Assembly: GCA_902618485.1 (NCBI GenBank)
Contig: CACNAR010000002.1
Coordinates: forward strand, 124,001-188,000
Source: an uncultured Pelagibacteraceae bacterium
GTDB lineage: Bacteria; Pseudomonadota; Alphaproteobacteria; Pelagibacterales; Pelagibacteraceae
Reading direction: 5' to 3'
DNA: 64,000 nucleotides
Shown: one piece after another, positions 38,992-63,004 of the stretch
How positions within the stretch are numbered: the first letter of the stretch is position 1
Layout: each line of letters starts with the position of its first letter
Notes under the pieces: generated by a model
Told to the model about the DNA's origin: nothing
Database searches by the model: none
What the model saw: the letters and a program-made list of their open reading frames with translations, nothing else
Position numbers and translations under genes: made by a program

Positions 38992-40953
38992 TTGAGTAAG
39001 GAACACAGGGAATTAGCTAATTGCATCCGATTTTTATCGATTGATGCTGTACAAAAAGCCAAATCGGGTCACCCAGGAATGCCTATGGGTATGGCCGATG
39101 TGGTAACAGTTTTGTTTAAAGATTTTTTAAATTTTAACCCAACTAACCCAAGTTGGATAAATAGAGACAGATTTGTTCTCTCTGCCGGTCACGGATCAAT
39201 GTTGCTTTATTCACTTCTTTATCTCACTGGTTATAAAAGTGTTTCTTTGAATGATATTAAAAATTTTCGTCAATTAGACTCAATTTGTGCCGGTCATCCT
39301 GAATATCACCCTGGCACTGGCATTGAGACTACCACTGGTCCTTTGGGTCAAGGGATATCTAACGCAGTTGGATTTGCTATTTCAGAAGAAATTTTAAAAA
39401 AGCAAATTGGAAAAAAAATTATTGATCATAAAACTTATGTGATTGCAGGTGATGGATGTTTAATGGAGGGAATTAGCCATGAGGCTTTAAGTCTAGCTGG
39501 ACACCTTAAATTGAAAAATCTTATTTTGCTTTTTGATAATAATTCTATTTCAATTGATGGTCCCACAAACTTAACAGTTTCTGACAATCATGAAAAAAGA
39601 TTTAAAAGTTATGGTTGGGATTATATTAAAATTAATGGACATAATTATAAAGAAATATCAAAAGCCCTTAAAAAAGCTCAAAAATCAAAAAAACCTATTG
39701 CAATTTCATGCAAAACTACAATTGGTTATGGATCTCCTAACAAAGGTGGTAAAGCTTCATCTCATGGTAGCCCGCTAGGTGATGATGAAATAAAATTAGT
39801 AAGAAAAAAATTAAACTGGAGTTATAATCCCTTTGAAATTCCAAAAAAATTATTGAATGAGTGGAAGTCAATTGGTGACAGAGCATCAAAAAAAGCAAAA
39901 AAATACGAAAAAATTTTTAGTAAGAAGCTTAAAAAAAACTTTCCACCAGGTTATAACCTTGCAAGAAATACTATCATTGGATCTATAGAAAAAGCAAAAA
40001 CAGAATATTTTAAAAATCTAGAGCCAATGGCAACAAGGAAATGCTCTGAAAAATTTTTAGAAATTGTATCAAAACTCCCAAATATAATTGGTGGGTCAGC
40101 TGACTTAGCTGGATCAAATAATACGAAAACTAAAAATCATAAAATTGTCAAACCAGGTGATTTTTCAGGAAACTATATTCATTACGGAGTAAGAGAGCAT
40201 GCAATGTGTGGAATTATGAATGGTATATCGCTTCATAGTGGGCTAATACCGTATGGTGGTACTTTTTTAATATTTAGTGACTATTGTAAACCCTCAATTA
40301 GACTTGCGGCTATGATGAAGCAAAAAGTTATATATGTTTTTACCCATGACTCTATTGGGCTTGGTGAAGATGGTCCAACTCATCAGCCTATTGAACAGTT
40401 GGCAAGTTTAAGGTCCATTCCAAATTTAAATGTTTTTAGACCATCTGACCTTATTGAAACTTTTGAATGCTGGCAATTAGCTCTTGAGAGTAAAAATACA
40501 CCAAGCGTTATTGCCTTGACAAGGCAGGCAATCAAACCTGTAAGAATTAAAAGTTCAACAAAAAATATGTCTTCATTGGGTGCTTATGAAATTTTTAGGA
40601 CTAATGATGATATAAAAGTTACAATTATAGCAACCGGATCAGAAACTAGTTTGGCAAGTGAAGTTGGTCATAAATTAGCCACAGATGGTATCTATTCAAA
40701 AATAATATCAATGCCTTGTCACGAATTATTTGATCAACAAAGTGAAGGCTACAAAAATGAAATTTTATCAGAAACAAACCTTATTGTATCAATAGAGGCA
40801 TCTGAAACAAGTTATTGGAAAAAATATACTAACCACAATGGTTTAAATTTTGGAATTGATGATTTTGGAAAGAGTGCTCCATATAAAAAAATTTATCAAC
40901 ATTTTGGAATAAATACTGAAAATATAATTAAAAAAATTAAAGATAAATTATGA
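38992..40953 (+). CDS. tkt: Transketolase (TTG start)
   Basis: TPP enzyme moving two-carbon units between sugar phosphates; it also yields sedoheptulose 7-phosphate. It has 653 residues. The TPP motif is GDGCLMEGISHEALSLAGHLKL, with KSGHPGMPMGMADV near the N-terminus and THDSIGLGEDGPTHQPIEQL in the Pyr domain. The start is TTG at 38992, supported by AGGA six bases upstream (38982-38985) and by MSKEHRELAN matching the family's first helix. It overlaps gap by 4 bases and begins a carbon-metabolism operon. Confidence 0.96.
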   Translation: MSKEHRELANCIRFLSIDAVQKAKSGHPGMPMGMADVVTVLFKDFLNFNPTNPSWINRDRFVLSAGHGSMLLYSLLYLTGYKSVSLNDIKNFRQLDSICAGHPEYHPGTGIETTTGPLGQGISNAVGFAISEEILKKQIGKKIIDHKTYVIAGDGCLMEGISHEALSLAGHLKLKNLILLFDNNSISIDGPTNLTVSDNHEKRFKSYGWDYIKINGHNYKEISKALKKAQKSKKPIAISCKTTIGYGSPNKGGKASSHGSPLGDDEIKLVRKKLNWSYNPFEIPKKLLNEWKSIGDRASKKAKKYEKIFSKKLKKNFPPGYNLARNTIIGSIEKAKTEYFKNLEPMATRKCSEKFLEIVSKLPNIIGGSADLAGSNNTKTKNHKIVKPGDFSGNYIHYGVREHAMCGIMNGISLHSGLIPYGGTFLIFSDYCKPSIRLAAMMKQKVIYVFTHDSIGLGEDGPTHQPIEQLASLRSIPNLNVFRPSDLIETFECWQLALESKNTPSVIALTRQAIKPVRIKSSTKNMSSLGAYEIFRTNDDIKVTIIATGSETSLASEVGHKLATDGIYSKIISMPCHELFDQQSEGYKNEILSETNLIVSIEASETSYWKKYTNHNGLNFGIDDFGKSAPYKKIYQHFGINTENIIKKIKDKL

Positions 40954-46875: not shown

Positions 46876-46940
46876 ATGATAAAATTATGTATAAAATTCA
46901 TAGACATAAAATTATAAAAATGTTATTCACACATTTTTTT

Positions 46941-46946
46941 GGAGGG
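46941..46946 (+). promoter_or_regulatory. Shine-Dalgarno deciding the rpsU start
   Basis: GGAGGG at 46941-46946 is one of the strongest ribosome binding sites in a window where most genes have none. Five bases separate GGAGG from ATT (46951), which argues that ATT, not the TTG at 46939, is the start. Confidence 0.7.
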
Positions 46947-46950
46947 ATTT

Positions 46951-47145
46951 ATTAAAATAGAAGTTAAAGATAACAATGTTGAACAAGCTCTAAGAGTTTT
47001 AAAAAGAAAGCTTCAGAGAGATGGTTTTTTTAAAGTGATTAAATTGAAAAATACTTATGAAAAACCGTCTGAAAAAAAAAAGAGGATCCTCCAAGAAAAC
47101 ATTAAAAGAGTAAAAAAATTAAATAAACTAAGAAATAGAATTTAA
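46951..47145 (+). CDS. rpsU: Ribosomal protein bS21 (probable ATT start)
   Basis: Small-subunit protein near the anti-Shine-Dalgarno helix, important for initiation. The core IEVKDNNVEQALRVLKRKLQRDGFFKVIKL is typical bS21. There is no ATG in frame. A perfect GGAGGG at 46941-46946 lies with ideal spacing ahead of ATT at 46951, which would give MKIEVKDNN... and 64 residues, the expected length. The only other candidate, TTG at 46939, overlaps the Shine-Dalgarno itself and adds an unconserved EGFI. An AUU start would place the gene under IF3 control, as known for E. coli infC. The family is certain; the start is inferred. Confidence 0.9.
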   Translation: MKIEVKDNNVEQALRVLKRKLQRDGFFKVIKLKNTYEKPSEKKKRILQENIKRVKKLNKLRNRI

Positions 47146-47151
47146 TTATAT

Positions 47152-47228
<77 letters not shown>

Positions 47229-47266
47229 GCTACTTTAATTTTCAAGCTTTAACTATCAACAAAAAG

Positions 47267-47285
47267 ATTTACGGTCTTTTCATAT
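47267..47285 (-). terminator. Weak hairpin between tRNA-fMet and pntB
   Basis: AAAAGA and TCTTTT flank a 7-base loop (TTTACGG) in the gap between the convergent tRNA-fMet and pntB genes. With A/T runs on both sides it could end transcription from either side, but the stem is short and has a single G-C pair. Confidence 0.25.
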
Positions 47286-47348
47286 GAAGTTTTTTTATTT
47301 GAATTCAAATTTTTGGTGTAAAAAGAAATTTTATTCTAATCTAATTTT

Positions 47349-48746
47349 TTATAAGTTTTTTGTAATATCCTCTGTCATTTTTTTTGCGTCTGCAAATAAC
47401 ATTAAAGTATTTTCTTTATAAAATAAGTCATTATCAATTCCAGCATAACCAGGGGATAGACTTCGTTTAACAAACAATACAGATTTACATTTTTCCACAT
47501 CGAGAACAGGCATGCCATAAATTGGGCTTTGTGGATCAGTTTTTGCAACTGGATTAGTCACATCATTTGCACCAATAACAAAAGCAACATCTGCATTAGC
47601 AAAATCATTATTTATTTCCTCCAGCTCAAATACCTCATCGTATGGTACGTTTGCCTCAGCTAACAAAACATTCATATGTCCAGGCATTCTTCCAGCTACA
47701 GGGTGTATAGCGTATGAAACTTTTATATCGTTTTTTTTTAATGTGTCGACCATTTCTCTTAAAGCATGCTGAGCTTGTGCCACTGCCATACCGTATCCAG
47801 GAACGATTATAACTGAAGAAGCATTTTTCATCAGGAAAGCTGCATCATCTGCGTTGCCACTTTTAACAGGTCTTTGTTCTTTAGTTGATTTGCTTAATGC
47901 ATCTTCAGTAGCACCAAAGCCTCCTAAGATTACATTGAAGAAGGAACGGTTCATACCTTTGCACATAATATAAGATAATATTGCTCCAGATGATCCCACT
48001 AGAGCACCTGTGATTATCAAAGCTGTGTTTTCCAAGGTAAAACCTATTCCCGCTGCTGCCCATCCAGAATAAGAATTAAGCATAGAAATTACCACTGGCA
48101 TATCAGCTCCGCCAATTGGAATTATTAATAAAAAGCCAATTACAAATGAAAAAATTAACAATATCCAAAACAAATTTGATGATTGAGTTGAACACAATAG
48201 ATAAATTAAAACAATTATTGAAACTAAAATAATTGCATTGAGAGGATGTTGGCCTTTAAACGTTATTGGTGATCCAGACATAATTCCTTGTAATTTTAAA
48301 AATGCAATCACAGATCCTGAGAATGTTATAGCTCCGACTGCAGCTCCAATTGACATTTCGATTAAGCTGCCAAGTTTAATATCTCCAGGTGAACCAAGAT
48401 TAAATGCTACTGGATTCAAAAAAGCTGAAATTGCTACAAAAACTGCAGCAAGCCCAACTAAACTATGGAATCCCGCAACTAGTTCTGGCATCGCTGTCAT
48501 TGGAATTTTGTAAGCTATAAAAGCTCCGATTGATCCTCCAAATAGTATAAAAATTAGTACAAAAACAAATCCACTAGAAAAATTTCCTATAGACAAAAAA
48601 GTTACTGTAACAGCAATAATCATTCCAAACATACCAAAAAAATTTCCTTGCCTAGAAGTCTCTGGTGATGACAAACCTCTTAAAGCAAGGATAAATAAGA
48701 CTCCCGAGACTAAGTAAAAAATTGCTGATAAATTTGCGGATATCAT
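47349..48746 (-). CDS. pntB: NAD(P) transhydrogenase subunit beta
   Basis: Inner-membrane subunit with the NADP(H) domain of the proton-translocating transhydrogenase, which reduces NADP+ with NADH. It has 465 residues: about nine membrane helices (1-270) followed by the soluble domain III with VIIVPGYGMAVAQAQHAL and GRMPGHMNVLLAEA, both binding NADP(H). It overlaps pntAB by 1 base. Confidence 0.97.
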   Translation of the reverse strand: MISANLSAIFYLVSGVLFILALRGLSSPETSRQGNFFGMFGMIIAVTVTFLSIGNFSSGFVFVLIFILFGGSIGAFIAYKIPMTAMPELVAGFHSLVGLAAVFVAISAFLNPVAFNLGSPGDIKLGSLIEMSIGAAVGAITFSGSVIAFLKLQGIMSGSPITFKGQHPLNAIILVSIIVLIYLLCSTQSSNLFWILLIFSFVIGFLLIIPIGGADMPVVISMLNSYSGWAAAGIGFTLENTALIITGALVGSSGAILSYIMCKGMNRSFFNVILGGFGATEDALSKSTKEQRPVKSGNADDAAFLMKNASSVIIVPGYGMAVAQAQHALREMVDTLKKNDIKVSYAIHPVAGRMPGHMNVLLAEANVPYDEVFELEEINNDFANADVAFVIGANDVTNPVAKTDPQSPIYGMPVLDVEKCKSVLFVKRSLSPGYAGIDNDLFYKENTLMLFADAKKMTEDITKNL

Positions 48747-55825: not shown

Positions 55826-56515
55826 TTAAGATTTTTTTTCAAATCTTACTTTTAATATTCTTTTAATAGTCCATATGGATGTCTCCAATGGGGCCATTTT
55901 ACTTTGACCAACTCTTTCTAAATAATCTATGTTAACACATTTTAATTTTAATTTTCTTTTGTGGAATGCAAGCAGTAATTCAACCGGTAAGGAAGGTCCA
56001 TCAGCAAAATAATTAATTGTTTTCAATGTCTCTTTATTGTATGCTCTCATACCTGAATGAAGATCTGGTATTTTTTTTAAGAACATTATACTTGCAAATA
56101 TTGAAAAAACTTTATTACCAATATAATTAATTAATTTCATATTTTTTGGTTTTGTATTTAGTCTATTACAATCAATTAATTTGTAATCTTCATCTAAAAT
56201 CAACTTTGATAAAAAATCAATTTGATCTGTTGGATATGTGCAATCACAGTCCATAGTTATTATCACATCCCTTGTGCAAGATTTTAATGCGAGATCCATT
56301 GCTAAACCATAACCTTGAGGAGGATATTGTTTTATTGCTTGAACACCAAGTTGTTTTGCTATTTCAAAGGTCTTATCTTTACTACTATCAACTAAAACAA
56401 TTTCAATTCTCTTGTCTATATTAAAAATTTCTTGAACAATTTTTTTTATGGAACCCTCTTCGTTCATTGAAATCATTGCTACACTTATTTTGTCTCCATG
56501 CTTAATCATGTTCAA
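55826..56515 (-). CDS. GT2-family glycosyltransferase, DPM1-like
   Basis: A 229-residue soluble GT2 enzyme similar in layout to dolichol-phosphate mannose synthase. Motifs are VAMISMNEEGSI, EIVLVDSSKDKT and the metal motif TMDCDCTYP; DLHSGMRAYNKETL is the acceptor loop. No C-terminal membrane helices are present. It overlaps the epimerase gene upstream by 4 bases. It may load a sugar on undecaprenyl phosphate, or add a heptose; neither is proved. Confidence 0.86.
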   Translation of the reverse strand: MNMIKHGDKISVAMISMNEEGSIKKIVQEIFNIDKRIEIVLVDSSKDKTFEIAKQLGVQAIKQYPPQGYGLAMDLALKSCTRDVIITMDCDCTYPTDQIDFLSKLILDEDYKLIDCNRLNTKPKNMKLINYIGNKVFSIFASIMFLKKIPDLHSGMRAYNKETLKTINYFADGPSLPVELLLAFHKRKLKLKCVNIDYLERVGQSKMAPLETSIWTIKRILKVRFEKKS

Positions 56516-57462
56516 AATCCATAGTGTTTTCGATTATTAATCAAAAATTTTATAGTTTTTATAATTGTTTGCTTGCTGGAATTTTTATTTGACCATCCAA
56601 GTTTTCGAAATTTTGAATCATTGATTCTGACAATTGGAACATCACCTCTCCACCCTCTAGTTCCACCAGTATATTTTTTTTTAATATTTTTTATTTTAAA
56701 AGCCTCTAAGGCTAACTTTAAAATTTCATTTACAGATATAAAATCTTTGGTTGATAAATTATAAACTTGATGATTTTTGAATTTAAAATTCTTAGCTTTA
56801 ATTAGAGCGCTTACAACATCTGAAACATGTAAATATGATTTACTTTGTTGTCCATTGCCTAGAATATTAATTTCTTTTTTATTCTTAAACAATTTTTTTA
56901 CAAAATCATAACAAACACCATGAGTACAATTATCGCCAGAAACATTAGCAAATCTAAATGATATTCCAGTAATTCCTACTAGATTAGAATATGATGCAAT
57001 AAGATTTTCGCAGTATAATTTACTTGCACCATAAGTTGAAATTGGATTGGTTATAGTTTTATCTTCTATCAATGGTTTATCTTTTTTATCACCATAAACT
57101 CCACTTCCAGACGCAAAAATAATTTTTTTAATATTATTTTTTCTCATTGCTTCTAATACATTTCTTAAAAGAATAGTGCCTTCTATAAAATCGATATCTG
57201 GATTTTTTACAGCTGCTGCTATATCTGGATTTGCAGCAAAATGATAAACTAAGTCTGTTTTTTTTATTGATTTATTAAGTTTATTTTGATTTTTTAAATC
57301 AGCATTAATAATTCTAATTTTCTTACTTTTCTTTAAAAACCATTTTTTTCCAGAGGAAAAATTATCATAAATTATTATCTTTTTAATTTTTTTAAGTTTA
57401 TTTACCTCGTTTACTAAGTTGCTTCCTATAAAACCAGCTCCACCAGATATAAATAAATTCAT
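56512..57462 (-). CDS. NAD-dependent nucleotide-sugar epimerase
   Basis: Extended SDR of 316 residues. NAD fold SGGAGFIGSNL; YHFAANPDIAAAVKNP; SGSGVYGD; catalytic YGASK; SFRFANVSGDNCTHGVCYDF. The C-terminal GGTRGWRGDVP is typical of UDP-glucose 4-epimerase-like proteins. It lies between the GmhA-like and DPM1-like genes with a 7-base gap and a 4-base overlap. The substrate may be the activated heptose made by this cluster, by position only. Confidence 0.87.
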   Translation of the reverse strand: MNLFISGGAGFIGSNLVNEVNKLKKIKKIIIYDNFSSGKKWFLKKSKKIRIINADLKNQNKLNKSIKKTDLVYHFAANPDIAAAVKNPDIDFIEGTILLRNVLEAMRKNNIKKIIFASGSGVYGDKKDKPLIEDKTITNPISTYGASKLYCENLIASYSNLVGITGISFRFANVSGDNCTHGVCYDFVKKLFKNKKEINILGNGQQSKSYLHVSDVVSALIKAKNFKFKNHQVYNLSTKDFISVNEILKLALEAFKIKNIKKKYTGGTRGWRGDVPIVRINDSKFRKLGWSNKNSSKQTIIKTIKFLINNRKHYGF

Positions 57463-57469
57463 CTAGAAA

Positions 57470-58066
57470 TTACTTTATTGACTCCCAGGTTGTTTTGTTT
57501 TCCATTAAATCAGGATGACTAACTAAAAAATGCCAAATAACGGAGGTTAATCCCTCAGTAATTGGTGTTATAAAATTACTGTCGTCTATATCAAAAACCA
57601 AACAAACATCGGAATTCTTGTTGGCATAGCCTGTTTCTTTTCCAATTACAGAGATTATTTTGCATCCTACTTCTTTAGAATAATCAATACAATTTATCAA
57701 ATTAACAGAGATATTTTTTTCTTTTGATCCTCCACCAACTGAGTAAACCATTATCACGTCATCAGAGTTTAATTTTGATCCTTTTAAATAATTTTTATAC
57801 GAGTTTTCCCAACCTTCATCATTAATTCTTGCTGTTAACTCTGAAACATTATCTGTTGGAGTAAACGATTGTAGATTGCAAATTTTCCTAAAATCATTAA
57901 CCGCATGGCTACAATGTCCTGCAGAACCTCCAACTCCAATTAAAAACAATCTACCATTTTTATTTTTACATTCTACCAATATCGAAACCATTTTATCTAA
58001 AATTTTATTGTCAACTTTACTCAGTGATGAAATGTTTTTACTGATAAATTCTTTTGAAAAGCTCAT
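57470..58066 (-). CDS. gmhA: GmhA-like SIS-domain phosphoheptose isomerase
   Basis: Predicted to convert sedoheptulose 7-phosphate to D-glycero-D-manno-heptose 7-phosphate. It has 198 residues, as usual. The SIS motif is LIGVGGSAGHCSHAVNDF. VYSVGGGSKEKNISVNLINCIDYSKEVGCKIISVIGK is the second sugar-phosphate loop (usual STSGNS). It lies 2 bases after the HddA-like kinase gene, which strongly supports a heptose role. Confidence 0.82.
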   Translation of the reverse strand: MSFSKEFISKNISSLSKVDNKILDKMVSILVECKNKNGRLFLIGVGGSAGHCSHAVNDFRKICNLQSFTPTDNVSELTARINDEGWENSYKNYLKGSKLNSDDVIMVYSVGGGSKEKNISVNLINCIDYSKEVGCKIISVIGKETGYANKNSDVCLVFDIDDSNFITPITEGLTSVIWHFLVSHPDLMENKTTWESIK

Positions 58067-58068
58067 AC

Positions 58069-59049
58069 TTAATTTCTTCCTAATATTACAGAACCATCAT
58101 AATCAAAGTTATATTTAAGCTCCAGTAATTTTAAATTTTTCATTTTTGAACGCAGTTTTAACTTATCTTTTGTGATAAACAAAACAAATCCACCACCGCC
58201 TGCTCCAATTAATTTTGCACCCAAAGCCCCATTTTTTAAACCATATTCAATTAAGTTATTAATACTATTAGAACTCATATTTTTTGACCTTTTCATTTTA
58301 TAATTCCAGTGTTCATTCATTAAATTTGCATAATCCTGCACAGATCCTCTTTGAAAAACATTTATTGACTCGTTTGCTATTTCTTTTACAAAATCTAAAG
58401 ATTGTATTAGTTCTTTATTTTTCTTTTTTGTTTTTTTTTCTTGTTCACCTAGAATATTTTTTGATTGCCTCGTATAACCAGTAAAATATGTTAAAAAACT
58501 ATCATCTAACTCATCTATAAAATCTTGAGAAATTTTCAATTCTTCTATTTTTGTTTTTCCATTTTTTGAAATTTTTATTATCTTTAAGCCCCCGTAACTA
58601 GAAATAAAAGGATCTTGTTTTCCCGATGGTTCTTTTAAAATATCCATTTCTATTTTGCAGGCATTGTCAGCTAATTCGTATCTACTCAAATTTTTATTAT
58701 AAAACGAATTTACAACGTTTATTAATCCTACCAAAAATGTACCCGATGAGCCAAGTCCTGTTCCGGCTGGAACATCTGAAATACTTGATATTTCCAAGTA
58801 GTCAGGAATTTTAAAAAAACTCAATGTTTCTCTTATTGCATTATGTTTTATTGAATTAATTGTTTTTTTTTTTTCTATTTCTGAGTATTTTAATAAAAAA
58901 TTTTTCTTCCAGGTCTTATTAACTGTTACATATATATATTTATTTATTGCGGCACTGATTACCAAACCACCCTTTAATTTGTAGTATGATGGCAAATCAG
59001 TTCCACCACCAGCAAGTGAAATTCTTAATGGAGATCTACTTAGAAACAT
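58069..59049 (-). CDS. hddA: GHMP kinase, HddA-like (heptose 7-phosphate kinase)
   Basis: Predicted to phosphorylate D-glycero-alpha-D-manno-heptose 7-phosphate at C1. It has 326 residues. SRSPLRISLAGGGTDLPSYY is the HddA opening, the GHMP ATP loop is DVPAGTGLGSSGTFLVG, and KLIGAGGGGFVLF is motif 3. It is the first gene of the minus-strand half, divergent by 53 bases from the HddC-like gene. Fucokinase-like specificity is the main alternative. Confidence 0.84.
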   Translation of the reverse strand: MFLSRSPLRISLAGGGTDLPSYYKLKGGLVISAAINKYIYVTVNKTWKKNFLLKYSEIEKKKTINSIKHNAIRETLSFFKIPDYLEISSISDVPAGTGLGSSGTFLVGLINVVNSFYNKNLSRYELADNACKIEMDILKEPSGKQDPFISSYGGLKIIKISKNGKTKIEELKISQDFIDELDDSFLTYFTGYTRQSKNILGEQEKKTKKKNKELIQSLDFVKEIANESINVFQRGSVQDYANLMNEHWNYKMKRSKNMSSNSINNLIEYGLKNGALGAKLIGAGGGGFVLFITKDKLKLRSKMKNLKLLELKYNFDYDGSVILGRN

Positions 59050-59102
59050 AAATTGAATATATTATAATTTTAATTTTTTTAATTTTATATATACGTATAT
59101 TA

Positions 59103-59798
59103 GTGAAAAAAAAACCACCTATCATTATACTTGCTGGCGGGAAAGCAACAAGACTTAGGCCAATTACCAAAAATATCCCTAAATCAATGGTTTTGATAAA
59201 TAATAAACCATTTTTATATTATCAATTGAAACAGCTAAAAAGATTTAATTTTGAAAAAATAATCATTTCTACAGGGTATAAAAGTCAGGTTATTGAAAAT
59301 TATATTAAGAAAAAATTTAAAGATAAATCAATATCAATAGTAAAGGATAACAAATATCATTCTGGGACGGGTGGTGCTATTAAAAATTGTCTAAAGTATA
59401 TTAATAATGATTTTTTTGTAATTTATGGTGACAGTTATCTTAGTATTAATTATAATAAAGTTTATAAAAAATTTCTATTTAGTAAAAAAGATCTTTTAAT
59501 TACAGCCTTCAAAAATAAAAATAAATACGATAATAGTAATTTATTTATAAAAAATAATAAAATTCTTGATTACGATAAAGATTCAAAAAAAGCTGAGCAT
59601 ATTGATTATGGGGTTCTATGTATTAATAAAAAGGCTTTTAAAGGTGTTAAAACTTATAGATTTGATTTAAAAAAAATAATAATAAGACAAATTCAAAATA
59701 ATAATATTTCTTTTTTTGAAGTAAAAAAAAGATTTTATGAAATTGGTAATAAAGTTTCTTTAAAAGAATTTAAAGAGTATGCAAAAAAAAAATTATAA
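59103..59798 (+). CDS. hddC: Sugar-1-phosphate nucleotidyltransferase, HddC-like (GTG start)
   Basis: Predicted to add GMP to heptose 1-phosphate, giving GDP-heptose. It has 231 residues. The pyrophosphorylase loop is LAGGKATRLRP (10-20), with KSMVLINNKPFLYYQL after it; the metal Asp lies in VIYGDSYL. The start is GTG at 59103 in an AT-only leader without Shine-Dalgarno. It overlaps the next GT2 gene by 20 bases. Base specificity (GTP or CTP) cannot be read directly; GDP is inferred from the HddA partner. Confidence 0.82.
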   Translation: MKKKPPIIILAGGKATRLRPITKNIPKSMVLINNKPFLYYQLKQLKRFNFEKIIISTGYKSQVIENYIKKKFKDKSISIVKDNKYHSGTGGAIKNCLKYINNDFFVIYGDSYLSINYNKVYKKFLFSKKDLLITAFKNKNKYDNSNLFIKNNKILDYDKDSKKAEHIDYGVLCINKKAFKGVKTYRFDLKKIIIRQIQNNNISFFEVKKRFYEIGNKVSLKEFKEYAKKKL

Positions 59799-60486
59799 AC
59801 TAGATGTTCTTCTTTTGGCTCACAACGAAGAAAAAACAATTGTCAAAGAAATACTTAATATAATTAAAATTTTAAAAAAAATAAAATTCAGAATTATAGT
59901 TGTTGAGGATGGTAGCAAGGACAAAACATTAAAAAAGTTAAAATCTTTAAAAAAAAAAATTACTTTAATTTCCTCAAAAAAAAGACTTGGTTATACAACT
60001 GCTCTTTTGAAAGGAGTTGATGCTGCTAATTCTAAATTTATAATGCATAGTGATACTGGTAACAAATTTGATTATAGAGAAATAATTAATTTTTATAATA
60101 TCATCTCAAAAAAGAAGTTTGACTTAATTGCAGGAAATAGAATAAAAAGATTTGACAGTATTTTTAGACAAATTTTAACTAAAGGTTTAGCTTTTTATTG
60201 TAATATTTTTTTCAATATAAACTATAAAGATTATGATTGTGGATTTAAAATGTATAAAACAAACGTTTTAAAAGAAATTCTTAAGGATGGCCTTAAGTCA
60301 AAAAATTTAGTTTCAAGTGAAATTTTTTTAAGATTCATTTTTAGAAAAAAAAAAATAAAACAGTTTAACGTCAAATATTATGCATCAAAAAATAGAATAT
60401 CTAGAGGCCTCCCCTTAGTTAAAATTTTTAAAGTGATATTTGAAACTATCTTAAATTATCGAAAAATAAAAAAAGAAATTATATGA
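59779..60486 (+). CDS. GT2-family glycosyltransferase
   Basis: A 235-residue DPM1-like GT2 protein. VLLLAHNEEKTI and IIVVEDGSKDKT are the nucleotide motifs; MHSDTGNKFDY stands where the DxD motif is usually found, so only one of the two aspartates is kept. DYDCGFKMYKT is the acceptor loop. It is strongly basic. It overlaps hddC by 20 bases and the FAD oxidoreductase by 4. Confidence 0.84.
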   Translation: MQKKNYKLDVLLLAHNEEKTIVKEILNIIKILKKIKFRIIVVEDGSKDKTLKKLKSLKKKITLISSKKRLGYTTALLKGVDAANSKFIMHSDTGNKFDYREIINFYNIISKKKFDLIAGNRIKRFDSIFRQILTKGLAFYCNIFFNINYKDYDCGFKMYKTNVLKEILKDGLKSKNLVSSEIFLRFIFRKKKIKQFNVKYYASKNRISRGLPLVKIFKVIFETILNYRKIKKEII

Positions 60487-61778
60487 AAAAAAAAGTTATA
60501 GCTGTTTTGGGAGGGGGAATATCAGGACTAGCGTTCTCGGCAAATTCAAAAGATAAAACAATAATTATTGAAAAAGAATCAAGATGTGGAGGTCATTGCC
60601 AAACAAAAATAGAAAAAAATTTTACTTATGATATTGGTGGTCCACATATTTTATTCTCAAAAAATAAAAAGATATTGAGATATATGGTTAAGTTGCTGAA
60701 AAATAATATATCAACTAACAAAAGAGATAATAAAATTTTTTATAAAGGAAAATTATTAAAGTACCCTTTTGAGAATGGAATTAATGATTTATTACCAAAT
60801 GAAAAATTTGATTGTTTAAACGATTTTATTTTTAATAAAAATAAAAAAAAAAAACCTAAAAATTTTAAAGACTGGTTATATTATAATTTCGGAAATTTTT
60901 TAACAAATGAATATCTCTTGCCATACAATGAGAAAATTTGGAACACTAAAGCTGATAAAATGGATTTTGATTGGGTTGAAGGTAGAGTGCCTATTTCTTC
61001 AAACCAAGAATTAATTAAGACTGCTGTTGGAATACCAACAGAGGGTTATACTCATCAACTATATTTCTATTATCCAAAAAGAGGAGGCTATGAAGAATTT
61101 TGCAAAGCTTTAGAAAAAAAATGTAAAAAAATTAAAACAAATTTTAAAATTAAAAAAATTTATAAAACTAAAAAAAAATGGATAATTGAAAACAATAATG
61201 AAAAAATTATTTGTGACGAAATAGTATCAACTATTCCAATAAAAGATTCATTAAATTATTTCTCAAAAGTACCTAAAAAAGTTCTGACAGCATCTAAAAA
61301 TTTAAAATCTAATTCTTTAATTCAAATTAGTTTAGGTTTTAAAACAAATACAAAAATACCTTATACCGCTATTTATTTTCCTAATAAGGACTTTTTATTT
61401 CATAGAGCTTCTTTTCCACATAATTTTTCAAAATATTGTGTTCCAAAAAATCATATTTTAATCAACTTTGAAATAACTGTTAATAAAGGAGATGGAATTT
61501 ACGAAAAAAACGATAATTTTTTAATTAATCATTGTTACAAAAAAATTATAGGAACGAATTTAATTAAAAACGCAAAATTAAAATATAAAAATGTTGAAAG
61601 AACTGAATATGCTTATGTAGTAAGGGATTTTAAACATAAAAAAAATTTGAATACATGTTTAAACTTTTTAAATAAAAAAGGAATTCACTCTTTAGGAAGA
61701 AATGCTCAATTTTTATATATTAATTCTGATGAGGCGGTAAGGAGAGGAATTGAGTTAGCAAAAAAATTTAATGAATAA
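60483..61778 (+). CDS. FAD-dependent oxidoreductase, UDP-galactopyranose mutase/amine oxidase-like
   Basis: A 431-residue flavoprotein. The N-terminal dinucleotide fold is VLGGGISGLAFSA, followed by IIEKESRCGGHCQT and YDIGGPHILFS, and a C-terminal FAD contact around GIHSLGRNAQF...NSDEAVRRGIE. The layout is that of the protoporphyrinogen-oxidase/UDP-galactopyranose-mutase superfamily. In a sugar cluster a mutase, desaturase or oxidase on an activated sugar is plausible, but no reaction can be assigned. It overlaps gmhB by 8 bases. Confidence 0.78.
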   Translation: MKKKVIAVLGGGISGLAFSANSKDKTIIIEKESRCGGHCQTKIEKNFTYDIGGPHILFSKNKKILRYMVKLLKNNISTNKRDNKIFYKGKLLKYPFENGINDLLPNEKFDCLNDFIFNKNKKKKPKNFKDWLYYNFGNFLTNEYLLPYNEKIWNTKADKMDFDWVEGRVPISSNQELIKTAVGIPTEGYTHQLYFYYPKRGGYEEFCKALEKKCKKIKTNFKIKKIYKTKKKWIIENNNEKIICDEIVSTIPIKDSLNYFSKVPKKVLTASKNLKSNSLIQISLGFKTNTKIPYTAIYFPNKDFLFHRASFPHNFSKYCVPKNHILINFEITVNKGDGIYEKNDNFLINHCYKKIIGTNLIKNAKLKYKNVERTEYAYVVRDFKHKKNLNTCLNFLNKKGIHSLGRNAQFLYINSDEAVRRGIELAKKFNE

Positions 61779-62304
61779 TAATAAAGCTTTTTTTTTTGAT
61801 AGAGATGGTGTTCTTAATAAAGCAGTAATAAAAAATAAAAAACCGTATCCACCACAAAATTTAGAGAAACTTATTCTTAATAAAGATGCTTTGGAAATAA
61901 TTACATTTCTAAAAAAACTAGAATTTAAAATCTTTGTATTTACAAATCAACCTGATGTAGCCAGGAGAAAGATAAAAAAAAAAGAAGTTATTAAGATAAA
62001 CGATTATATCACAAAAAAACTTTTAATTGATGAGCTATTTGTTTGTTATTGTGCAACTAATGAATGTTTTAGACGTAAACCTAACCCAGGAATGATTTTT
62101 GATGCAAAAAAAAAATGGCGTATAAATTTACAAAAAAGTTATGTTGTGGGTGATAGATATAAAGATATAGAAGCTGGTATTAATGCTGGAACTAGAACCA
62201 TTTATATGAAAAATAATTACAATGAAAAAAAACCAAAAAACTTTAATTACATAATAAAAACTTTAAAAGATATAAAAAAAATTATAAAAAGAGAGCATGA
62301 ATAA
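61771..62304 (+). CDS. gmhB: HAD-family heptose bisphosphate phosphatase, GmhB-like
   Basis: Predicted to remove the C7 phosphate from heptose 1,7-bisphosphate. It has 177 residues. The HAD nucleophile motif is FFFDRDGVLN with Asp10 and Asp12; VFTNQPDVARR and RKPNPGMIFDA follow, then VGDRYKDIEAG. The zinc loop is shortened to CYCATNECFRRKP, with three cysteines and no histidine, unlike E. coli GmhB (Cys-His-Cys-Cys). It overlaps its neighbours by 8 bases on both sides. Confidence 0.83.
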   Translation: MNNNKAFFFDRDGVLNKAVIKNKKPYPPQNLEKLILNKDALEIITFLKKLEFKIFVFTNQPDVARRKIKKKEVIKINDYITKKLLIDELFVCYCATNECFRRKPNPGMIFDAKKKWRINLQKSYVVGDRYKDIEAGINAGTRTIYMKNNYNEKKPKNFNYIIKTLKDIKKIIKREHE

Positions 62305-63004
62305 ACTAAAAATAAAAATATTTGCTGATGGTGCTGATGAAAAACATATGCTGGCTTTAAATAAGCTTCCATATATAAAAGGTTTAACAACAAATCCTAG
62401 TTTAATGAAAAAGGCAGGAATAAAAAACTATAGTATTTTTGCAAAAAAAATTTTAAAGAAAATCAAAATAAAACCTATATCTTTTGAGGTGTTCTCAGAC
62501 AAACATAAAGAGATGTATAGACAGGCAAAGATAATTTCCTCATGGGGGAAAAACGTCTATGTTAAAATACCAATAACAAATTCCAAAGGTAAAGGTTGTT
62601 ATAAAATAATTAAGAAACTCTCAGATGAAAAAGTTAACTTAAATATCACAGCTATTTTTACAATGAGTCAGGTAAAAAATTTGAAGAAAAATTTAAATCC
62701 AAAATCAAAAAGTATAATTTCTATTTTTGCTGGTAGAATTGCAGACACAGGAAGAAATCCAGCCAATATTATTATACAAAGCGTTAAAATGTTCTCAAAA
62801 AATAAAAATATAGAAATATTGTGGGCAAGTACAAGAGAGTTATACAATATATTTGAAGCTAATAATTTAAAATGTCAAATTATCACTGTGACGCCTGACA
62901 TTCTAAAAAAAACCAAACTTATTAATTACAATTTAAATAAATATTCAATTGATACAATAAAAGATTTTTATAATGATGCGAAAGCAGTTGGATACAAAAT
63001 TTAA
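62297..63004 (+). CDS. tal: Transaldolase-family protein
   Basis: A 235-residue class I aldolase of the short transaldolase/fructose-6-phosphate aldolase group. IFADGAD (8-14), GLTTNPSLMKKAG (29-41) and VYVKIPIT, with Schiff-base Lys90, are diagnostic; NITAIFTMSQ and IFAGRIADTGR follow. It is the last gene of the hddC-GT2-FAD-gmhB run. Transaldolase chemistry can supply or consume sedoheptulose 7-phosphate, the entry compound of heptose synthesis, which would explain its place here. It is Lys/Ile-rich like its neighbours. Confidence 0.85.
   Translation: MNKLKIKIFADGADEKHMLALNKLPYIKGLTTNPSLMKKAGIKNYSIFAKKILKKIKIKPISFEVFSDKHKEMYRQAKIISSWGKNVYVKIPITNSKGKGCYKIIKKLSDEKVNLNITAIFTMSQVKNLKKNLNPKSKSIISIFAGRIADTGRNPANIIIQSVKMFSKNKNIEILWASTRELYNIFEANNLKCQIITVTPDILKKTKLINYNLNKYSIDTIKDFYNDAKAVGYKI

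Follow-up and report, generated by a model that had tools for sequence, protein, structure and literature searches.

The window, by which we mean the whole 64,000-nucleotide stretch that was analysed, lies on contig C2 of a SAR11-type genome of 1.04 Mb that is 90% complete. Near its right end are all five ORFs of a sugar-activation set, coding for SIS, GHMP kinase, NTP_transferase, HAD and transaldolase proteins, as established by ORF coordinates and family profile searches. They are listed here with the genes that accompany them and with two features further to the left:

38992..40953, plus strand: transketolase, housekeeping and outside the cassette, adjoining gapA, pgk and fba (sequence similarity and gene order)
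46939..47349, no strand: the conserved SAR11 housekeeping transaldolase site, with the w46939 ORF, a tRNA-like gene, then pntB (sequence read)
56512..57462, minus strand: SDR-family NDP-sugar epimerase/dehydratase, GalE-like (PF01370, 146 bits)
57470..58066, minus strand: SIS-domain ketose/aldose phosphate isomerase, GmhA-like but of a distinct family (PF13580)
58069..59049, minus strand: GHMP sugar-phosphate kinase, HddA-like (PF00288/PF08544)
59050..59102, no strand: 53-bp gap separating the divergent halves (ORF coordinates)
59103..59798, plus strand: sugar-1-phosphate nucleotidyltransferase, HddC-like, with a GTG start (PF00483)
59779..60486, plus strand: GT2 glycosyltransferase, embedded in the set (PF00535)
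60483..61778, plus strand: FAD amine-oxidase-fold protein of the PRK07208 group, embedded in the set (PF01593; NF005548 at 194.5 bits, below its cut-off)
61771..62304, plus strand: HAD-IIIA sugar bisphosphate phosphatase, GmhB-like (TIGR01656, 93 bits; cut-off 84)
62297..63004, plus strand: transaldolase, TIGR02134 type (290.7 bits; cut-off 281.95)

An earlier reading of the DNA without database searches (the sequence-only reading) had named the five genes and placed their divergence at 59050–59102, and the ORF coordinates agree on both points, but it missed three further genes. Two of these, coding for the glycosyltransferase and the FAD protein, sit between the nucleotidyltransferase and HAD genes; the third, the SDR gene, is the next gene after that of the isomerase on the same strand, ends 7 bp from it, and is probably a sixth member of the cassette. 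The transaldolase gene overlaps the HAD gene by 8 bp. The embedded glycosyltransferase is not constant across other cassettes, and the FAD protein, possibly a sugar mutase or oxidase, has relatives in a few other, distant cassettes (group c34).

Of the five proteins, the transaldolase alone exceeds the cut-off of an enzyme-level (equivalog) model. The isomerase scores 36.6 bits against the GmhA model TIGR00441 (cut-off 209), the kinase has its best NCBIfam match in NF049969 HddA at 154 bits (cut-off 600), the nucleotidyltransferase reaches 98 bits with the HddC model NF049965 (cut-off 300), and the HAD phosphatase reaches 86 and 83 bits with the GmhB models NF006506 and NF050049 (cut-offs 178 and 250, respectively). 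Because four of the five fall far below the heptose cut-offs, these matches do not fix the sugar, while the class of chemistry of each protein is secure.

An AlphaFold model of the isomerase (pLDDT 96) has GmhA as its closest structures, with a TM score of about 0.8 and about 22% identity. Alignment of 49 sequences of the family shows H54, D58, E171, H179 and S109-VGGG to be invariant; H54 aligns with H61 and D58 with E65 of E. coli GmhA, and the C-terminal ligands are not reliably alignable. Where GmhA has the phosphate loop STSGNS, all 49 of these relatives have an invariant SVGGG together with an insertion. With this altered loop and four proteins below the heptose cut-offs, the product proposed in the sequence-only reading, GDP-D-glycero-D-manno-heptose, is unsupported as stated.

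In the transaldolase, the catalytic, Schiff-base Lys90 is present together with Glu64 and Phe144, and all three are invariant in 28 aligned cassette transaldolases. The Glu/Phe pair is of the transaldolase type, not the Gln/Tyr of the FSA type, and aligns with E60/F132 of the T. acidophilum transaldolase 3s0c, an enzyme whose E60Q/F132Y variant is also a PDB entry. The structure model (pLDDT 96) is closest to T. acidophilum transaldolase 3s1u. The window protein thus shares the transaldolase active-site pair with the TIGR02134 ('transald_staph') family whose cut-off it passes, but whereas that model treats a member as the cell's transaldolase, most of the relatives examined outside SAR11 sit in a sugar cassette.

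The same five genes recur elsewhere as overlapping operons, so the set is far beyond chance. Two other SAR11 genomes have them as one overlapping operon, in the order GHMP-NTase-SIS-HAD-TAL (where TAL is the transaldolase) in G020 (locus L051) and NTase-SIS-HAD-TAL-GHMP in G022 (L050). A search of GTDB genomes with an isomerase profile returned at least 553 relatives, of which the best 80 bacterial and archaeal loci, spread over many phyla, were analysed. Within these best 80, a transaldolase gene is present in 67 and all five genes in 37, with 13 having no visible transaldolase; where there are at least 4 kb on both flanks it is present in 39 of 43 loci, and the HAD and transaldolase genes adjoin in 44 of 54. 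It is also found in 74 of the 80 viral contigs recovered with the isomerase. These rates are at the upper end, since the search keeps the closest relatives. Of 299 evenly sampled Pseudomonadota, seven carry the isomerase family, four of them with a transaldolase nearby; one of the three remaining carriers is on a 3-kb contig. Among 396 genomes sampled evenly from the same phylum as a Nocardioides carrier there are three strong carriers, all three with transaldolase, and no recognisable lincosamide cluster. The HddA-like kinases that are more common in SAR11 behave differently, lying beside a transaldolase in about 3 of 26 genomes. The sequence-only reading had treated the transaldolase as part of one set and proposed looking for the five genes together in other genomes, and there they are, in other SAR11, many phyla, archaea and phages.

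The SDR family of the window is found in 41 of the 80 bacterial and archaeal and 9 of the 80 viral cassette loci. Larger cassettes add, besides an SDR such as that in the window, an NDP-sugar dehydrogenase, a short-chain dehydrogenase and a Gfo/Idh oxidoreductase. One locus (L103), in a record titled S. griseus, was rejected as Streptomyces at 45% G+C over the locus. A literature search, with subscription papers mostly outside its reach, found no published description of the cassette.

The versions in T4-like phages have the order S-adenosylmethionine decarboxylase, cytidylyltransferase-fold nucleotidyltransferase, SIS, HAD, transaldolase, glycosyltransferase and kinase genes, and their nucleotidyltransferase resembles the heptose-1-phosphate adenylyltransferase half of HldE (HldE-C-like). 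They are reminiscent of the LPS- and sugar-modification genes among T4-like auxiliary genes in their SIS, HAD, transaldolase, GHMP and glycosyltransferase components, but differ in the cytidylyltransferase fold of the nucleotidyltransferase, which is often beside the S-adenosylmethionine decarboxylase gene. Among viral contigs L152–L231, for example at L168:7389-9626, a SIS-HAD-TAL-glycosyltransferase-GHMP array is seen with the HldE-C-like gene and often that of the decarboxylase. There was no match to the phage cassette in an annotated phage collection.

Outside SAR11 the cassette transaldolase is commonly an additional one. At least one further PF00923 protein is present in 29 of the 37 non-SAR11 genomes with a transaldolase-bearing cassette, and in 27 of the 37 it is strong (>200 bits) and of another type. 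A GmhA of about 200–210 bits is also encoded by five of six other carriers checked, including Polynucleobacter, Halieaceae, Methylococcales and Legionella, the exception being the Methanoperedens carrier, with no such GmhA. With a housekeeping transaldolase and GmhA often already there, these genomes would have no need of a further transaldolase that did nothing but make sedoheptulose 7-phosphate, and the local supply of that sugar phosphate, put forward in the sequence-only reading, does little to explain a dedicated enzyme. That reading had also named what would count against it, a second transaldolase coupled with no co-occurrence with heptose genes: a second transaldolase is absent from the window genome and present in 27 of the 37 other carriers, and the five genes do co-occur.

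The situation in SAR11 differs. By profile search, the window transaldolase is the only PF00923 protein in its genome, and as the sole transaldolase it may serve central metabolism too. Most SAR11 have one transaldolase. In the majority of the SAR11 neighbourhoods compared, its gene is flanked on one side by a conserved block that includes tkt, gapA, pgk and fba, and on the other by pntB; reading of the window sequence at this site (46939–47349) reveals no transaldolase and no visible remnant. The site is empty, and the cassette transaldolase appears to have replaced a lost housekeeping one. It is likewise the sole transaldolase in SAR11 genomes G022, G063 and G146. A strict rule of one transaldolase per SAR11 genome was rejected, as G188 carries both the housekeeping and the cassette types. 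The two types separate in a transaldolase tree, and placement of the window protein inside the housekeeping clade of its own genus is rejected (AU test, p=0.00019). An AU test that unites the window and L072 transaldolases with all SAR11 pntB-site transaldolases gives p=0.435 and no rejection; the two types may therefore share a root in SAR11, the rejection applying to the own-genus placement only. None of 12 SAR11 genomes has a 6-phosphogluconate dehydrogenase, and a working transaldolase would therefore be useful for pentose supply.

The closest known system by described activity, as opposed to sequence, is the lincosamide octose pathway of Streptomyces lincolnensis and S. caelestis (LmbR/N/P/K/O and CcbR/N/P/K/O), which has the same five activities in one cluster (PMC4351081, PMC12945683). 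In lincomycin biosynthesis, roles are confirmed for the LmbR transaldolase, LmbN C8 isomerase, LmbK phosphatase and LmbO guanylyltransferase (PMC4351081); these four are listed as characterised and the LmbP kinase as predicted (PMC4351081; PMC12945683). LmbR forms octulose 8-phosphate from fructose 6-phosphate or sedoheptulose 7-phosphate together with ribose 5-phosphate (PMC5854111), and the pathway also has the LmbM epimerase, LmbL dehydrogenase and LmbZ oxidoreductase (PMC4351081). Of LmbM/L/Z-type steps, the window has the SDR, with the NDP-sugar dehydrogenase and Gfo/Idh protein in other cassettes only. The two systems differ in context: the lincosamide pathway feeds an antibiotic in a few Streptomyces, whereas the cassette has surface-glycan genes as its neighbours, in SAR11 as in many phyla and in phages, and no aminotransferase, thiol or proline-coupling genes were seen in it. 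The pathway to GDP-D-glycero-D-manno-heptose (GmhA, HddA, GmhB, HddC) has the same four superfamilies and the same order of chemistry after the ketose phosphate, but the cassette proteins lie far under its curated cut-offs and the isomerase differs from GmhA in its phosphate loop. We know of no standard GDP-heptose set that includes a transaldolase.

We propose, with moderate confidence, that the cassette specifies a route that begins with transaldolase and whose product is a higher sugar, activated with a nucleotide and destined for the cell surface, probably an octose. The transaldolase would take three carbons from fructose 6-phosphate or sedoheptulose 7-phosphate and attach them to an aldose phosphate. 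The ketose phosphate so formed would be isomerised by the SIS enzyme to an aldose phosphate, which the GHMP kinase would phosphorylate at C1; the HAD enzyme would then take off the terminal phosphate, and the nucleotidyltransferase would add the nucleotide, probably as GDP. The SDR probably modifies the NDP-sugar, and the neighbouring glycosyltransferases would be its users. If the acceptor is glyceraldehyde phosphate or erythrose 4-phosphate, a transaldolase yields fructose 6-phosphate or sedoheptulose 7-phosphate, which are common metabolites; with ribose 5-phosphate it yields octulose 8-phosphate, which is not. Ribose 5-phosphate is the most likely acceptor here, and an NDP-octose would then be the most likely product.

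The main competitor is a GDP-heptose cassette in which the transaldolase makes sedoheptulose 7-phosphate from fructose 6-phosphate and erythrose 4-phosphate and the other four proteins convert it to GDP-manno-heptose, a reading to which we give appreciable but lesser weight. An NDP-octose is favoured over an NDP-heptose because the lincomycin cluster encodes the same series and LmbR makes octulose 8-phosphate, because the isomerase phosphate loop is invariantly changed relative to GmhA, and because the SDR, NDP-sugar dehydrogenase and Gfo/Idh proteins of larger cassettes parallel LmbM/L/Z; the 'unusual sugar' that the sequence-only reading offered as its alternative is the part of it that fits best. 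For a heptose speak the named matches, with HddA, HddC and GmhB best or near best for the kinase, nucleotidyltransferase and phosphatase, and the GmhA-like fold of the isomerase; heptose enzymes thus appear, albeit below cut-off, among the leading named matches of four of the five proteins. The loci lacking transaldolase (13 of the best 80, and three of the seven Pseudomonadota carriers) and the HldE-C-like enzyme of the phage cassettes also tell against an octose, the latter counting for a heptose as well. Also on the heptose side, 6-phosphogluconate dehydrogenase is missing in SAR11, where sedoheptulose 7-phosphate must therefore come from the non-oxidative branch. Against the octose, the cassette transaldolase is usually the sole one in SAR11 and would have to work on the normal substrates of the pentose-phosphate pathway, should the cell need that activity. 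The heptose reading has to accommodate, however, that none of the proteins reaches a heptose cut-off, that the isomerase is without the STSGNS loop, and that a dedicated transaldolase would be redundant for sedoheptulose 7-phosphate in most non-SAR11 carriers, which own another, several of them with a true GmhA as well.

That an ordinary pentose-phosphate transaldolase was moved beside sugar genes by chance is improbable. The window enzyme is the sole transaldolase of its genome and matches an ordinary transaldolase model, SAR11 housekeeping transaldolases also border the surface-sugar region, and joining to the whole pntB-site clade is tolerated by the AU test; but a five-gene operon conserved across phyla and phages already contradicts a chance arrival. 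Rejection of the own-genus placement also speaks against it, and so does the coexistence of both types, seen in SAR11 G188 and in 27 of the 37 other genomes. Similarly improbable is another higher or branched sugar, in which the acceptor would be arabinose 5-phosphate, a hexose phosphate or a non-phosphorylated aldehyde and the product an octose that differs in configuration, a nonose or a modified sugar. The extra oxidoreductases do vary among cassettes, and transaldolases accept several aldoses (PMC5854111), but the known octose route fully accounts for the five-step logic.

More broadly, and more tentatively than for the cassette itself, we suggest a widespread pathway for nucleotide-activated octoses of surface glycans in many phyla, some archaea and T4-like phages, from which the lincomycin octose route would derive as a special case and whose transaldolase would have displaced a central-metabolism enzyme in the streamlined SAR11. 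The octose route itself is already known from antibiotics. If this is correct, a transaldolase-headed route to C8 sugars known in detail only from lincosamides would be common surface chemistry in aquatic bacteria and their phages, and in SAR11 a mobile surface-sugar cassette would have taken over a step of central metabolism in cells whose genomes are among the smallest of free-living organisms. Should the product be a heptose, the cassette still remains a recognisable marker, misnamed in current annotation as GmhA/HddA/HddC/GmhB plus a housekeeping transaldolase.

Several other SAR11 genomes show variations at these loci. There is no PF00923 transaldolase in the whole of G109 (97% complete), and the enzyme may therefore be dispensable in some SAR11. 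In G123 (L275, G123:C5:116000-135900) the pntB-site transaldolase is broken, with matches at G123:C5:125750-126089, and a cassette-type kinase is present at a contig edge (G123:C14:360-1337). G027 (L067:395-10334) has a divergent transaldolase gene that overlaps a GHMP kinase gene. A SIS protein is encoded nearby, and about 8 kb away lies a sequence resembling the C-terminal half of a transketolase. In L052 (G127:C5:115513-116907), a gene for a GmhA-type isomerase directly adjoins the housekeeping transaldolase gene at the pntB site.
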